A stretch of DNA of 54,399 bases from Candidatus Altimarinota bacterium (GCA_013368515.1 JABWCI010000009.1:1-54399); one strand, 5' to 3'. Shown: positions 13,785 to 49,363, numbered from the stretch's first letter. The notes: a model not told the origin generated them from the letters alone. Made by a program: numbers and translations.

Positions 13785-13919
13785 ACTTTTTCGATATGTA
13801 TCAATGGGATTCTTAAGGGTGAGACTTCGCCATAAAACGAGAGATAAAAAGTAAATCAACTAATCAGCGAATGATTCGAACCCTTGAGGACTTTTGGTAC
13901 CTTTTGGTCACAAAAGTAC
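13785..13919 (+). repeat. Structured repeat element, copy 1
   Basis: This 135-bp non-coding element is shared with copy 3 (16936-17067). It begins ACTTTTTCGATATGTATCAA and ends in a conserved G-T-A-C-C-T-T-T-T-G-G-T-C-A-C-A-A-A-A-G-T-A-C segment that folds on itself. An outer stem pairs TTAAGGGT (13813-13820) with ACCCTTGA (13880-13887), including a G-U pair. The middle, GAAACGAGAGATAAAA-like, is conserved. Confidence 0.75.
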
Positions 13920-13941
13920 AACTAACTAAATAATCAATTAC

Positions 13942-13973
13942 TAAAAAAACCAGAATAAATTCTGGTTTTTTTA
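13942..13973 (-). terminator. Terminator of the YgjV-like gene
   Basis: TAAAAAAACCAGAATTTA-type hairpin: AACCAGAAT against ATTCTGGTT with flanking A and T runs. The gene's TAA (13971-13973) is the outermost base of the hairpin. Confidence 0.75.
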
Positions 13974-14573
13974 GTATCTTAAAAACTTAAGTCTTCTATG
14001 TCTAGAAGCAAACAATCTTATCCATTTTCTATGTAATAGATATTTATAATACCTAATTTTTCACCAAAATCATCTCCTTCTGTACAAGATATATATTGAA
14101 CTTGATAATACAAATATAAATATAATAGAAGTTAGTGTTCAAGATAATGAATTTCAAAAATAACTATATATCAAATAGATAAAATTAGTTAATATATAAA
14201 TTAATCTTAAAGGAATTCAAGTGAAATAAAAAGCTGAAAAAAGTGATATTATAGATCAAAAAGTAAGTAAATAAGATAATATTTCACCATTTGCAGTTTT
14301 ATATCATATAATCAAATAAACTATAGTAAATAATAAAAATAAATATAGATTTTTTTTATATTTTATAACTATTAAATTTTTGAAAACATCAAAAAAATTT
14401 ATAAAAGATGCTGTTAATAACCCAAGTCATAAAAAATGTAATCAATAAAAAAATGAACAAATAGCAAGCATAATAAAAAGCATCCTATCATTTTTTTCAG
14501 TATAAGAAACAACATTAAAAAATAATGCTATAAGTCATATAATCTCCCAAAAAATATTTACTTTTTCAAACAT
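13971..14573 (-). CDS. YgjV-like inner membrane protein (200 aa)
   Basis: A polytopic membrane protein with about six hydrophobic helices spread over residues 8-165. It ends in a strongly basic cytoplasmic tail (R-R-R-G-F-W-G-K-I-R-Y-Y, then R-H-R-R-L-K-F-L-R-Y). Helix spacing and the S-Y-L-L-T-F-G-S-I-I-S-L and P-L-R-L-I-Y-I-L-T-N lines resemble the Imp-YgjV family (PF10688), whose function is unknown; I make this assignment from memory of the pattern only. It stands alone, with its stop codon inside its terminator. Confidence 0.6.
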
Positions 14574-14651
14574 AAGTTAAAATAATTGATATATTTAGTT
14601 AATTTTAACATATATTTTCATACTTTACAAATATTTTAATTATAGTATAAA

Positions 14652-14685
14652 TAAAAAGATAGAAAAATATTTTTCTATCTTTTTA
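14652..14685 (-). terminator. Terminator of the 173-aa gene
   Basis: TAAAAAGATAGAAAAATA with its complement ATTTTTCTATCTTTTTA. It is an almost perfect inverted repeat containing the gene's TAG (14675-14677), with a T run on the minus strand. Confidence 0.75.
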
Positions 14686-15196
14686 ACATAATTACTTCTA
14701 ATAAGGCCAATGTTTCATTTTTGGCATCTCATACCTTATCTACTATATCAAGTCAAAGTTCCATCATAATCATATCTTTATAATTTTGAGGAAAGCAAAA
14801 ATCATTTCAAATTTGTTTTTCACGAGAACTTATCATGTTAGTTACAAAATCTAAAATAGAAATTTTATCATTTTCACTAAGATTATTTATTTTTTCTCAT
14901 AAAACTCTAAGCTCTAAAAGTAATTTATATAATAAAAAAAGATATTTTACTGGTACATCCAAAAATTCTTTTTCATAAAAATAATTGGATAATTCACTAA
15001 AAATAAAAGGTTTTCAATTTATATTTATTGTAACTGATTTACTATCATCTTTCTCCAATAGGACTAGTGGCCATTCAATCTCTTTAGAAAGAGTTAAAAC
15101 ATCATTTATAGCAAACATTACAACTTCTGTTATTTCATCTTTTCAATAATCAATTATCTCTTGTTTTCTCATAATATTTACATTAATATTTTTCAT
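14675..15196 (-). CDS. Hypothetical cytoplasmic protein (173 aa)
   Basis: Not recognised. It is a soluble, mainly helical, Leu/Glu/Lys-rich protein with L-F-L-L-Y-K-L-L-L-E-L-R-V-L-G-E-K-I-N in the middle and a C-terminal helix L-G-L-D-I-V-D-K-V-G-D-A. Two in-frame ATGs are possible. I chose 15194-15196 because a TATAAT (minus strand, 15204-15209) ends 7 nt upstream, consistent with a leaderless transcript; the alternative at 15170-15172 removes eight residues. It is a single-gene unit ending in its own terminator. Confidence 0.6.
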
Positions 15197-15238
15197 AAAT
15201 TTAATTATAATATAAATAAAAAAATATATATGTCAAAA

Positions 15239-15270
15239 TAAAAAGACTAGAAAATTCTAGTCTTTTTTTA
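15239..15270 (-). terminator. Terminator of the rhodanese gene
   Basis: AAAAAGACTAGAA TT TTCTAGTCTTTTT hairpin. The rhodanese TAG (15257-15259) is part of the stem. Confidence 0.8.
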
Positions 15271-15589
15271 ATTTGTATCAATAATTTTCCCAATATTCAA
15301 TTCATCAAACTAAATCATAAACATGTGTGAAATTATTCTCACTCATATAAGCCAAAACACTTTGTGTCCTATTTCAATGAAAACAATAAATTAAATATTT
15401 TTTACTTTTATCAAGTGAAGCAATTTGTGAAACTACTTCTGGTCTATATACATCAAACAAAAAATGTGTTCACTCAATATAACCATAATATTCTTTTTCT
15501 TCTATAGTTCTAAAATCTATCAAAATATATTCTCAAGTTTTTAGTTTACTATCGAAATCTTTAGGGAAAAGTCTACCAATTTCTGCCAT
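15257..15589 (-). CDS. Single-domain rhodanese-like sulfurtransferase (110 aa)
   Basis: The single rhodanese domain is of usual length. It opens with F-P-K-D-F-D and Y-I-L-I-D-F-R-T-I-E-E-K-E-Y, the usual D-x-R and E-x-E-Y/F lines. The active loop is Y-C-F-H-G-N-R-T-Q with the catalytic Cys near residue 75 and Arg closing the loop. The C-terminus reads V-Y-D-L-V-G-G-I-E-Y-W, the conserved glycine-rich turn, with TGA glycines. It transfers sulfane sulfur, for example from thiosulfate or protein persulfides. It might supply sulfur to the SUF machinery, for which no desulfurase is seen in this window; that link is inference. It lies 14 nt downstream of the RlmL-like gene. Confidence 0.85.
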
Positions 15590-15603
15590 TTTCTTTAATA
15601 AAA

Positions 15604-16710
15604 TTATATATTTTTCTTCCAAAAATAACACATTTCACCTCAATTATATAGTTTTCTTTTTTTATAAGTATCTTTTTTAATCAGATTATCAAATTCCATA
15701 TAATTTGAAATAATTCATCAATTTAATTCACTATTTAATCTAAATAATTTATCTATATCATTGTAAACAGATTTTAGATTTTCATCTTTAAGTCTCTCTC
15801 AGTAAGGTGGATTTGAAACAAGAGTTCAAGAAATAGATTTATTTAGATACTCTCTAAAATCTTTAACTTCAAAATTTATTTCTCATCATAATCAAGCTAT
15901 TCTAGCATTATTTTGAGCTAAAGATACCATTTCTGGATTTATATCACTTGCTTTTATAGTATATTCTCCTGAAAATTCTTTTTTTCTAGCTAATGATCTT
16001 TCATTTTCTGTTATTTCAGAACTTACTAATCACAATTTTTCAAAAGCAAATTTTCTTTTAAGTCCTGGAGCTATATTTTTAGCTATCATAAGTGCTTCAA
16101 TAGCGATAGTTCAACTTCAACAAAAAACATCATAAAATGGTTCTTTAAATTTCCAACCAGATAACAAGACAAGTGCTGCAGAAAGAGATTCTTTTATAGG
16201 AGCTTCTCATGATTTTTCTCTATATCATCTCATATGCAAAGCATCTCAAGAAGTATTTAATAAGATACGAGCTTTATTATCTATGATTAATACTAATATC
16301 TCCATTTTTTCTAAAGAAGAGTCTTCATCTACTATTCAATTATCTCAAACTCTAGATTTTATAATTGCTTTTTTTGCTAAACTTTGAATAGTCCTTTCAG
16401 CAAAAAGTTCACTTCTAGTAGAGTTTGATTTAACTACTATAGGAAAATCTTTTTTAAAATAACTCTTCCAAGATATATTTTTTATTAAATCAAAAAGACT
16501 ATCAAAATCTCTAACATTATCTTTTTCAGCTAGTAATACATACATCTTATTTCCTACTCTAGACCATAAATTTATTCTAGGAATAAGTTCAATTCAACCT
16601 GAAAAAGTTATAAGCCTATCTATAGTTTCTTCTATAATTCAACCTTGTTTTTCTATTTCTTTTTTTGCAATACTTTCTACTCAAGCTATTGTTGATAATA
16701 CAAATTTCAT
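15604..16710 (-). CDS. THUMP-domain RNA methyltransferase, RlmL/Trm-G10 type (368 aa)
   Basis: Residues about 1-155 form the ferredoxin-like and THUMP RNA-binding part, beginning MKFVLSTIAGVESIAKKEIE. The Rossmann methyltransferase follows, with the SAM motif D-V-F-C-G-S-G-T-I-A-I-E-A (about residue 195) and the catalytic N-P-P-Y-G-E-R-L (about 299-306), the N6- or N2-guanine/adenine signature. It is shorter than E. coli RlmL because it lacks the second methyltransferase (RlmK) domain. The likely target is a guanosine N2 in 23S rRNA or tRNA. It stands just upstream of the rhodanese gene, so the two may be co-transcribed. Confidence 0.88.
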
Positions 16711-16784
16711 TTATTTTTTATTTAAAAATTAATTTTCTATGATTATAGTTTAAATATGATTAAAGGCAAAAGAAAAACACTTCC

Positions 16785-16905
16785 TACTTTTGTAACCAAA
16801 AGGTAGCAAAAGTTTTAGGGGTTTTCGAACTAGCTAGTATAGTTCTGTTGCTTACGGTAAGTAATCACTATCTCAACCCCTAAGACCCCTGTAAGTTTCT
16901 ATAAG
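16785..16905 (-). repeat. Structured repeat element, copy 2 (inverted, divergent)
   Basis: TACTTTTGTAACCAAAAGGT is the reverse complement of the right end of copies 1 and 3. The outer stem is TTAGGGGTT (16815-16823) with AACCCCTAA (16875-16883). Inside it GAACTA...TAGTTC and CTTACGGTAAG form two further hairpins. The interior sequence differs from copies 1 and 3 while the layout is kept. Confidence 0.6.
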
Positions 16906-16935
16906 CTTTTTTCATTTTGATTTAAATTTTTTCTT

Positions 16936-17067
16936 ACTTTTTCGATATGTATCAATGGGATTTTTAAGGGGAATATTTCGCCATGAAACGAGAGATAAAA
17001 CTTGATAGATTGTATGCGAAAGTTAGTCCCCTTAAAGACTTTTGGTACCTTTTGGTCACAAAAGTAC
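16936..17067 (+). repeat. Structured repeat element, copy 3
   Basis: 132 bp, closely similar to copy 1 throughout. The outer stem is TTAAGGGG (16964-16971) with CCCCTTAA (17028-17035). Relative to copy 1, a T-A pair has become G-C by changes on both sides, and the G-U pair has become A-U. Confidence 0.75.
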
Positions 17068-47280: not shown

Positions 47281-48402
47281 TTAAGAAAATGTTTCTTTAA
47301 ATTCTTCATATTTTCATCTATCAGAAAAATTAATTTCAAAATTTAAATCATCAATCTTATCTATTCTAACAGAGTCTATTCATAATACTTGAAGTCTTTC
47401 ATATGTTAATAATTCTCATTCTTCTAAATTCAAAACATCTCTTAATAACCATCTTCATAATTCTCTGTTTGGATTTGACATTAATGCTTTTCAACCATCT
47501 TGACAAATTTTTACTGAAAGTTGTTGTCAATTGGGTAATTTTAATGAAAATTGATTGTCCCTATCTGGGAAAAAATTAGGAAATTTTTCATGTATTATAC
47601 TTGGTATAGGAATATATATTTCATTTCTATCTCTAGTTCTTCATCTTGCATTCCAATGATTTAATCAACTTCTTTCACCTACTATATTATTCCTTCAATA
47701 AAGTGGTAAATAAATAGTATTATTTGAGTTAAAACTACTTAGTAATTCTAATCATCAATTTTCTCAAAAAATATTATTAAGTTCTAATAATGGATCTTTT
47801 ATAATTTCAATATCAAAAGAGTGTAATATAGAATCTGTATTAAATCTTTTAGTTAAAGTACTTTTAGAAACTAAAAAAGAATATTCGTTTATTCAATCAC
47901 TAAAAATAATAGATGATTTATTGTTTTTAGTAATAACAATACTTTCTATATTTATTTTTTCTAATCTTTCTTCAAAAATAATAAACTTATTAATATCCCT
48001 TAATACACAATGATATATTGATTCATATAATCAATGTAATCTTTGTGTAAAATCTATTCTTTCATTTCTTAATTCTGAAATTTTCTTTATCTTATTTAAT
48101 CATTCTAAAGATTCATATAGATTTTTATCAGCATTAAATTCTGCTACTTTTTGAAATGTTTTTTTATTTCATATCAAAAATGTTTTTAATCAAACTCATA
48201 ATCCATCTTTTCTTGCATCTACAGATACATCACTTCTTGATAAATCGTCTGCTGAAAAAGATCTACAAAATATTTTTTCAGCAATACGATAATATAAATA
48301 TGGTATTTCTGAATCTGAAAAAAGATTAGATAATGATCAAACTACTTTTAAGAATTTTTGATATTCATCTTTTTGTTCTTGTGATTGGTTTTCAAAAAAC
48401 AT
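47281..48402 (-). CDS. Type II restriction endonuclease, NgoFVII-like C-terminus (373 aa)
   Basis: The C-terminal 140 residues match the B3-like DNA-binding domain of the NgoFVII/BfiI group: I-Y-I-P-I-P-S-I-I-H, F-P-N-F-F-P-D-R, L-K-L-P-N-G-Q-Q, K-A-L-M-S-N-P-N-R-E-L-G and L-T-Y-E-R-L-Q-V-L-G-I-D-S-V-R-I. The N-terminal part lacks the phospholipase D active site; it has D-V-S-V-D-A-R-K-D-G-L-G-V-G-L-K, a possible D-x-K nuclease centre. It cuts unmodified DNA; the target is not predictable. It starts 4 nt after the methyltransferase stop. TGA codons show the pair is native in code. Confidence 0.82.
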
Positions 48403-48406
48403 ATAT

Positions 48407-49363
48407 TTAATTAAATGTTAAAAGTAGTTTTTCTGCAACTCTCTTTATTACAGGAACTGAAACACTGTTTCATGCTTGTTTATATAAATGAGAATCCGCT
48501 AAATTTGGTAATATAAAATTTTTAGGAAATCATTGAATTAAAAATGCTTCTCTTGGTGTAATTTTTCTAATTCATTTTTTATCAAGAATTATTGGTACAT
48601 TATGTCATCATGTTCACATATTAGCTGTAAGTGTGGGAAAAACTCATGATTTATTCTCTCTTACATATTGCCTTCTCCATTGATAAGCCCTATCAAATCT
48701 ATTTACATCGTCCTTTATTCTATCATATAAACTTTTTCAATTATAATAATATTTATCATCTACATTTTCTTCTAAAATTTCTCTGAAATTAGTTTTTAAA
48801 TCAATTTTCTCTGGAAAAGAAAATCTATCAAATTTTTCTTTATCCCTAAATCATACAATATATATTCTTTCTCTATTTTGAGGTACATTTCAATATTCCA
48901 TACTATTCATAACTTTAAAATGTATAAAATATCATTCCTCTTTTAACATTTTTAACATAAGTCTAAGTGTTTCTCATTCAGCGTGAGAAGCTAAATTTTT
49001 TACATTCTCCAAAAAAATTATTGGTGTTTTTTTCTCTTTTAATATTCTAATTATATCAAAAAATAATGTCCCCCTATTATCCTCAAATCACTTTTGATAA
49101 CCTGCTATTGAAAAAGCTTGACAAGGAAATCATGCACATAAAATATCATGATTAGGGATACTTTTTTCATCTTGTATAGTTATATCTGTATTAAAATTAT
49201 TATTTTTAAATAAATCCGGATTATGATTTTTATAATTTAACTCATATGTCTTTCTAGCATTAATATCTATTTCTGATGAAAAAACACACTTTCATCATAA
49301 TTGAGAAAGAGCATTATGAAATCATCATACTCAAGCAAATAAATCAATAAATTTAAAAGACAT
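48407..49363 (-). CDS. DNA (cytosine-5) methyltransferase, type II
   Basis: 318 residues. Motif I F-I-D-L-F-A-G-V-G-G-F, motif IV C-A-G-F-P-C-Q-A-F-S with the catalytic Cys, motif VI F-L-E-N-V, motif [15 protein letters not shown] and motif X A-G-N-S-V-S-V-P-V all appear in the usual order. The target-recognition region lies between VIII and IX (about residues 190-260). It protects the host DNA against the restriction enzyme encoded 4 nt downstream. All conserved glycines use TGA or GG-type codons, so it has been resident in this code. Confidence 0.95.

Follow-up and report, generated by a model that had tools for sequence, protein, structure and literature searches.

The repeat present at three places in this stretch of DNA belongs to a family that is almost certainly real, structurally conserved and insertional. 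It is probably a non-autonomous mobile repeat, with a single-stranded, pseudoknotted fold that an enzyme acting in trans would recognise. The basic unit is ~115–135 nt long. The stretch analysed here, termed the window, comprises 54,399 nt and is one of the 28 contigs of a 1.15-Mb genome.

The first-pass annotation had described three copies with shared ends at 13785–13919, 16785–16905 and 16936–17067. The sequences are there, but the second and third are not independent, being the halves of one 283-bp inverted pair at 16785–17067, and the first is a solo half. In the composite, two structured units are inverted with their 3' ends outward and an AT-rich spacer between them. The left unit (copy 2; minus strand, type A) spans 16784–16935 with the spacer and has its core covariance-model match at 16784–16893 (74.3 bits); the right unit (copy 3; plus strand, type B) spans 16936–17067, with a core match at 16953–17067 (85.6 bits). 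The solo unit (copy 1), also plus strand and type B, has its core match at 13802–13919 (82.7 bits). The model recovers all three units with E values of 1e-14 to 3e-17, the units themselves being members of its training set. The terminal inverted repeats of the composite, 32 nt long and 91% complementary, lie at 16785–16816 and 17035–17066. Between copies 1 and 3 identity reaches 91% in the first 65 nt and 95% in the last 40 nt, and the end of copy 2 is complementary to the ends of the other two at 91–93%. Full-length relatives of the composite elsewhere measure 269–285 bp, and full pairs occupy conserved loci in five species of the same genus. Within the same genome there is a second inverted pair on contig C27 and a bare 28-nt end on contig C9.

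The genes of the window read TGA as glycine (table 25), as in Gracilibacteria and Absconditabacteria, and table 11 fragments most of them. On the minus strand at 35–1378 lies a 447-aa ORF with six tandem repeats of ~75 aa resembling the membrane c subunit of rotary ATPases, an apparent six-fold fusion. At 47281–49363, again on the minus strand, a cytosine methyltransferase-like gene adjoins a 373-aa gene, possibly as a restriction–modification pair. Two 211-nt stretches (1433–1643 and 2642–2852) are 95% identical between similar small membrane-protein genes and point to a recent local duplication. None of the genes accounts for the repeat itself, as had been proposed at the outset.

Alignment of 45 units from many genomes gives the order GGG(G/A)T, an outer stem arm, ~55 variable nt, the second arm and a 3' motif with the consensus XXCTTTTG-N-TA-CTTTTG-GYYA-CAAAAGTA. 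Stem alignment and the covariance model place the arms of the outer stem at 13812–13819 and 13881–13888 in the solo unit and at 16963–16970 and 17029–17036 in the right unit, all on the plus strand. Between these two units the stem changes from TTAAGGGT/ACCCTTGA to TTAAGGGG/CCCCTTAA, and the conversion of a T-A pair into G-C by change on both sides is present as first described. Across the family the arm pairs differ widely (TTCGGGGGCC/GGCCCCCGAA, TTTTAGGGGG/CCCCCTAAGA, TTCTTAAGGG/CCCTTGAGGA and TTTGGGGTGG/CCACCCCAAA), the 129 units having 76 different 3' arms, and yet at least nine of 10 pairs form in 84 of them against ~10 expected from shuffled upstream sequence. In a held-out test, in which the stem was placed by its outer 5 pairs only, at least five of six inner positions were paired in 44% of units and in 1.6% of shuffles. 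With a seed set selected by the end-motif pattern, the covariance model gave 135 matches, 118 of them distinct. When these 118 units were aligned by fitting to the outer stem and the end hairpin, and not to the pseudoknot described below, pairing held at 97.9% in the outer stem, 98.3% in the pseudoknot and 99.6% in the end hairpin, with both-sided changes at 14 of 19 pairs. The covariation noted in three copies is borne out in a larger alignment: the whole-structure score is 0.364 against 0.120 in shuffles, a value that none of 500 shuffles reaches, and in a MAFFT alignment the score lies above those of all 500 shuffles and of every slide.

Variant unit ends revealed a pairing additional to those first noticed. 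The dinucleotide XX, immediately 5' of the first CTTTTG, is complementary to YY in the loop of the end hairpin, and the first base of this CTTTTG tends to pair with the first base of the loop. The combinations read in unit ends are GA/TC, AG/CT, AT/AT, AA/TT, TT/AA, CA/TG and GG/CC. In the window the motif was placed by sequence, XX–YY pairing and covariation at 13889–13918 in the solo unit (GA-CTTTTG-GTAC-CTTTTG-GTCA-CAAAAG-TA, in which GAC pairs with the loop GTC), at 17037–17066 in the right unit (also GA/TC) and, on the minus strand, at 16785–16814 in the left unit (AA-CTTTTG-CTAC-CTTTTG-GTTA-CAAAAG-TA), where AA/TT is a compensatory difference from the other two. Both XX–YY pairs are complementary in 82% of 122 non-redundant units, compared with 0.8% and 4.9% in neighbouring control registers, and all three pairs of the helix hold in 79% of them against a permuted maximum of 30%. 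This helix, which is absent from the structure of the covariance model, has both-sided changes at all three pairs among the 118 distinct units. The end hairpin also changes in a compensatory way in some variants (CTTTCG/CGAAAG with the third strand CCTTTG; CTTTTC/GAAAAG). Compensatory changes preserve the fold in three helices. Each unit would fold on one strand, with the outer stem closing a variable interior and the 3' terminus forming an H-type pseudoknot made of a 3-bp stem, XXC:GYY, and a 6–8-bp stem, TACTTTTG:CAAAAGTA. The TTTTG strand between the stems could sit in the major groove as T(U).A-T(U) triples.

On the strand as written, G.T wobbles outnumber A.C mismatches by 18 to 4 (p = 0.004), a count that rests on a structure-fitted alignment, and the excess leans towards a strand-specific, RNA-like fold. 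It would suit a functional RNA transcribed to act in the cell, as a small RNA or as a structured untranslated region, with dispersal being secondary. A pseudoknot with a pyrimidine strand beside an A-rich stem is an architecture known from functional RNAs, and some units lie within an operon in the direction of its genes, as among the trp-like genes of one genome (G276). Such a role is nevertheless unlikely. The units are intergenic, the flanking genes are of all kinds, and orthologous sites in close relatives are without the element. Among 104 copies, 78 lie between co-directional genes, and the element is anti-parallel to these in 40 cases and parallel in 38; this lack of orientation bias is against a cis-regulatory RNA or a terminator. 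Rfam covariance models gave zero matches in the window above the gathering threshold and only chance-level matches at the elements.

All-against-all comparison of the neighbouring proteins found no recurrent family beyond ordinary synteny and read-through translations of the repeat. A MazF/PemK-like ORF, identified by eye, lies directly before the second composite of this genome (L002 765–1188, on G000:C27) and does not recur at other copies. Units that lie <5 kb from each other on a contig mostly point the same way (17 of 18 adjacent pairs); for those farther apart the tendency is not significant. Targeting to a replication strand was rejected, the strand of the element agreeing with GC skew in 19 cases and disagreeing in 39, with lineages contradicting each other. 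Integron-like arrays were also rejected, since in the three clusters examined the units do not consistently follow each gene and have no cassette-like boundaries. In the G276 cluster (contig C77; L308 5587–13000), five units are interleaved with tryptophan-operon-like genes, all in the direction of the genes, which suggests that operon spacers are common landing sites.

With the covariance model, a search of this genome and related ones found units in 45 of the 288 genomes sampled from the class. Both the additional copies and the wider covariation, whose joint absence would have counted against the first-pass annotation, are clearly present. Many of the matched units come from genomes not used in building the model. 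There are four matches in this genome, 7–12 in genomes of the same genus and at least 13 in some elsewhere. Among the matches listed, the end motif occurs in at least 115 stretches, its carriers including, within Patescibacteria, Gracilibacteria and Magasanik-, Levy-, Davies- and Buchananbacteria and, beyond them, Sedimenticola (with S. selenatireducens strain BK-1), rumen Clostridia and Oscillospiraceae, Bacteroidota and Glassbacteria. Assembly contamination is possible for single records; several genera have multiple copies. XX–YY complementarity is kept in 54–55 of 56 motif copies from outside Gracilibacteria, found with a search pattern that fixed one of the two loop bases and neither XX base. 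Patescibacteria clearly show a covarying outer stem in the standard position; in Clostridia and Sedimenticola it is less clear. Within the genus 25 of 27 copies are paired; outside it most units are solo (82 solo and 15 paired, against a background of ~14%), which makes the inverted pair a local way of arranging a more general unit. Phage and plasmid collections, searched for distant DNA matches, returned no relatives. There are also two variant arrangements. Intergenic spacers at L065, L254 and L249 carry short tandem repeats of the end motif alone (TACTTTTGTGACCAAAAGAGAACAATTCC) besides whole units, as if insertions had been nested and trimmed. In another genome (G066:C1; L340 8571–11879) four near-identical, GC-richer units (CCTTTG..CTTTCG..CGAAAG) lie 0.6–1.3 kb apart in one direction, and a table-25 ORF runs through three of the four.

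Comparison of orthologous sites suggests that the element behaves as an insertion that turns over between them, because some sites in the same genus are empty and unit types are swapped at conserved loci. At three loci where relatives carry the element, this genome has none (G000:C5 near 20045, C4 near 25226 and C23 near 14045), and two of the three are also empty in G202 or G238. The occupied alleles consist of a pair plus extra end-motif repeats within short AT-rich spacers; the empty sites are diverged and AT-rich, and no target-site duplication is readable there. Six conserved loci of the genus carry the A, B and C types of unit in combinations and orientations that differ. Along its entire length the composite of the window matches a copy at another, non-orthologous locus of G258 (C4:99780–100064) with 94% identity, and the orthologous G258 region aligns at ~78%. 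The type swaps and these identities indicate that exchange between loci, via re-insertion or ectopic recombination, has happened. Positions of the element are conserved across the genus, in which nucleotide identity is 75–93%, so movement is slow. Some empty sites can be explained by loss rather than gain, and presence in three species with absence in two could partly reflect deletion.

It is conceivable, if rather improbable, that the repeat is not actively mobile at all and that an intrastrand triplex or hairpin DNA causes local instability, the sequence spreading and being exchanged through replication slippage and homologous recombination. In their triplex-like combination of direct repeats and hairpin, their intergenic placement without orientation bias and their unstable flanks, the units recall the triplex motifs of Holder et al. 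2015 (PMC4666352); the swapping at conserved loci fits ectopic recombination, and the local clusters are co-oriented. Such instability leaves unexplained why several phyla share an almost identical 28-nt end and a conserved pseudoknot, and why some sites are occupied and others empty.

Among neighbouring ORFs and in the searches for two transposase families no related autonomous transposase emerged, PF01797 being absent from most and PF13358 from all carriers tested. The first-pass annotation had pointed to a REP-type or IS200/IS605-type transposase, and this is the part of its proposal that failed. This genome lacks the Y1 transposase family PF01797, as do four genomes of the same genus and four of five other carriers tested, and the same search finds matches in six of 14 control genomes. 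A REP/BIME-type repeat moved by a RAYT (an IS200-like Y1 transposase), or a non-autonomous IS200/IS605 derivative, would share the palindromic, intergenic nature of the units, their inverted doublets, their conserved single-strand structure and their co-orientation at short range. It is very improbable and already largely refuted: besides the missing enzyme, the 5' consensus is GGG(G/A)T with no GTAG/CGTC tag, the copy number is low and the relation of strand to GC skew is inconsistent between lineages. An IS630/mariner-type MITE with ends TA-CTTTTG...CAAAAG-TA and a TA duplication would suit the TA...TA ends and 32-nt inverted repeats of the composite but is scarcely credible, as none of the 12 carriers tested has DDE_3 (PF13358), units outside the genus are mostly solo and conservation continues beyond the TA. 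GIY-YIG nucleases occur in all 16 genomes examined, including four without model matches; they were rejected as partners, one lying beside a unit at only one of 40 loci.

What stands of the initial idea that the element is selected as RNA or as a hairpin DNA transposition substrate is selection on a single-stranded fold and insertion-like behaviour. In the mobile-repeat explanation that we favour, the folded single strand would be the signal for a trans-acting enzyme, which we hold to be probable rather than assured. In this genus the units stand as inverted pairs of ~280 bp with 30-nt terminal inverted repeats, and in most other lineages they are solo. Exchange at occupied loci would rely on the ends that units have in common, through either re-insertion or ectopic recombination. 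A long shot within the same frame is that the units are mobilised as RNA, with a reverse transcriptase or an RNA-guided system recognising the 3' pseudoknot of a transcript in trans, which would make them a SINE-like bacterial retroelement spread across phyla.

If the favoured explanation is true, one structural solution, a covarying hairpin with a 3' pseudoknot, marks a mobile repeat of unrelated phyla. Its carriers would include ultra-small Patescibacteria, with genomes that are otherwise streamlined and, in those tested, without the usual transposase for such repeats. The covariance model, R1, defines a concrete, searchable family and lets the mobilising enzyme be hunted by co-occurrence; whether bacteria have structured repeats moved as RNA would then become directly testable. 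Literature searches covering the end motif, REP-like repeats of Gracilibacteria and MITEs of Patescibacteria gave nothing relevant, and in this coverage, which was not exhaustive, we found no earlier description of the family.

Pseudoknots with U-rich loop triples are found in telomerase RNA, the SAM-II riboswitch and type III antitoxin RNAs. The units resemble them in H-type topology and in a pyrimidine loop beside an A-rich stem; they differ in that no reverse transcriptase, ligand-dependent gene or toxin gene recurs beside them. For the type III antitoxins in particular, no linked toxin gene was found and no protein family recurs next to units. Like REP, BIME and REPIN sequences with their RAYTs, the units are intergenic, palindromic and non-autonomous, occur singly or as inverted doublets and conserve a single-strand structure, but they are 115–135 nt long with a pseudoknotted 3' end, show no GTAG/CGTC tag, are few per genome and occur mostly, among the carriers tested, without a Y1 transposase. 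The genus-specific composite is short, gene-free and bounded by terminal inverted repeats, as are bacterial MITEs such as those derived from IS630, whereas the common form here is a solo unit without inverted repeats, and no transposase relative was found. Intrastrand triplex motifs are intergenic, without strand bias, and mark unstable loci (PMC4666352). The units, with their putative triplex, likewise place a third strand, a direct repeat of a hairpin arm, beside a hairpin of matching sequence, are intergenic and free of strand bias, and have unstable neighbourhoods. The best-studied triplex motif is G/C-rich, with no covarying hairpin body described (PMC4666352), whereas here covariation extends to the 3-bp pseudoknot stem, and a larger covarying hairpin terminates in the motif. 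REP/BIME repeats with RAYTs, MITEs and intrastrand triplex repeats are thus the closest published kinds, and the family differs from each of them in a defining respect.
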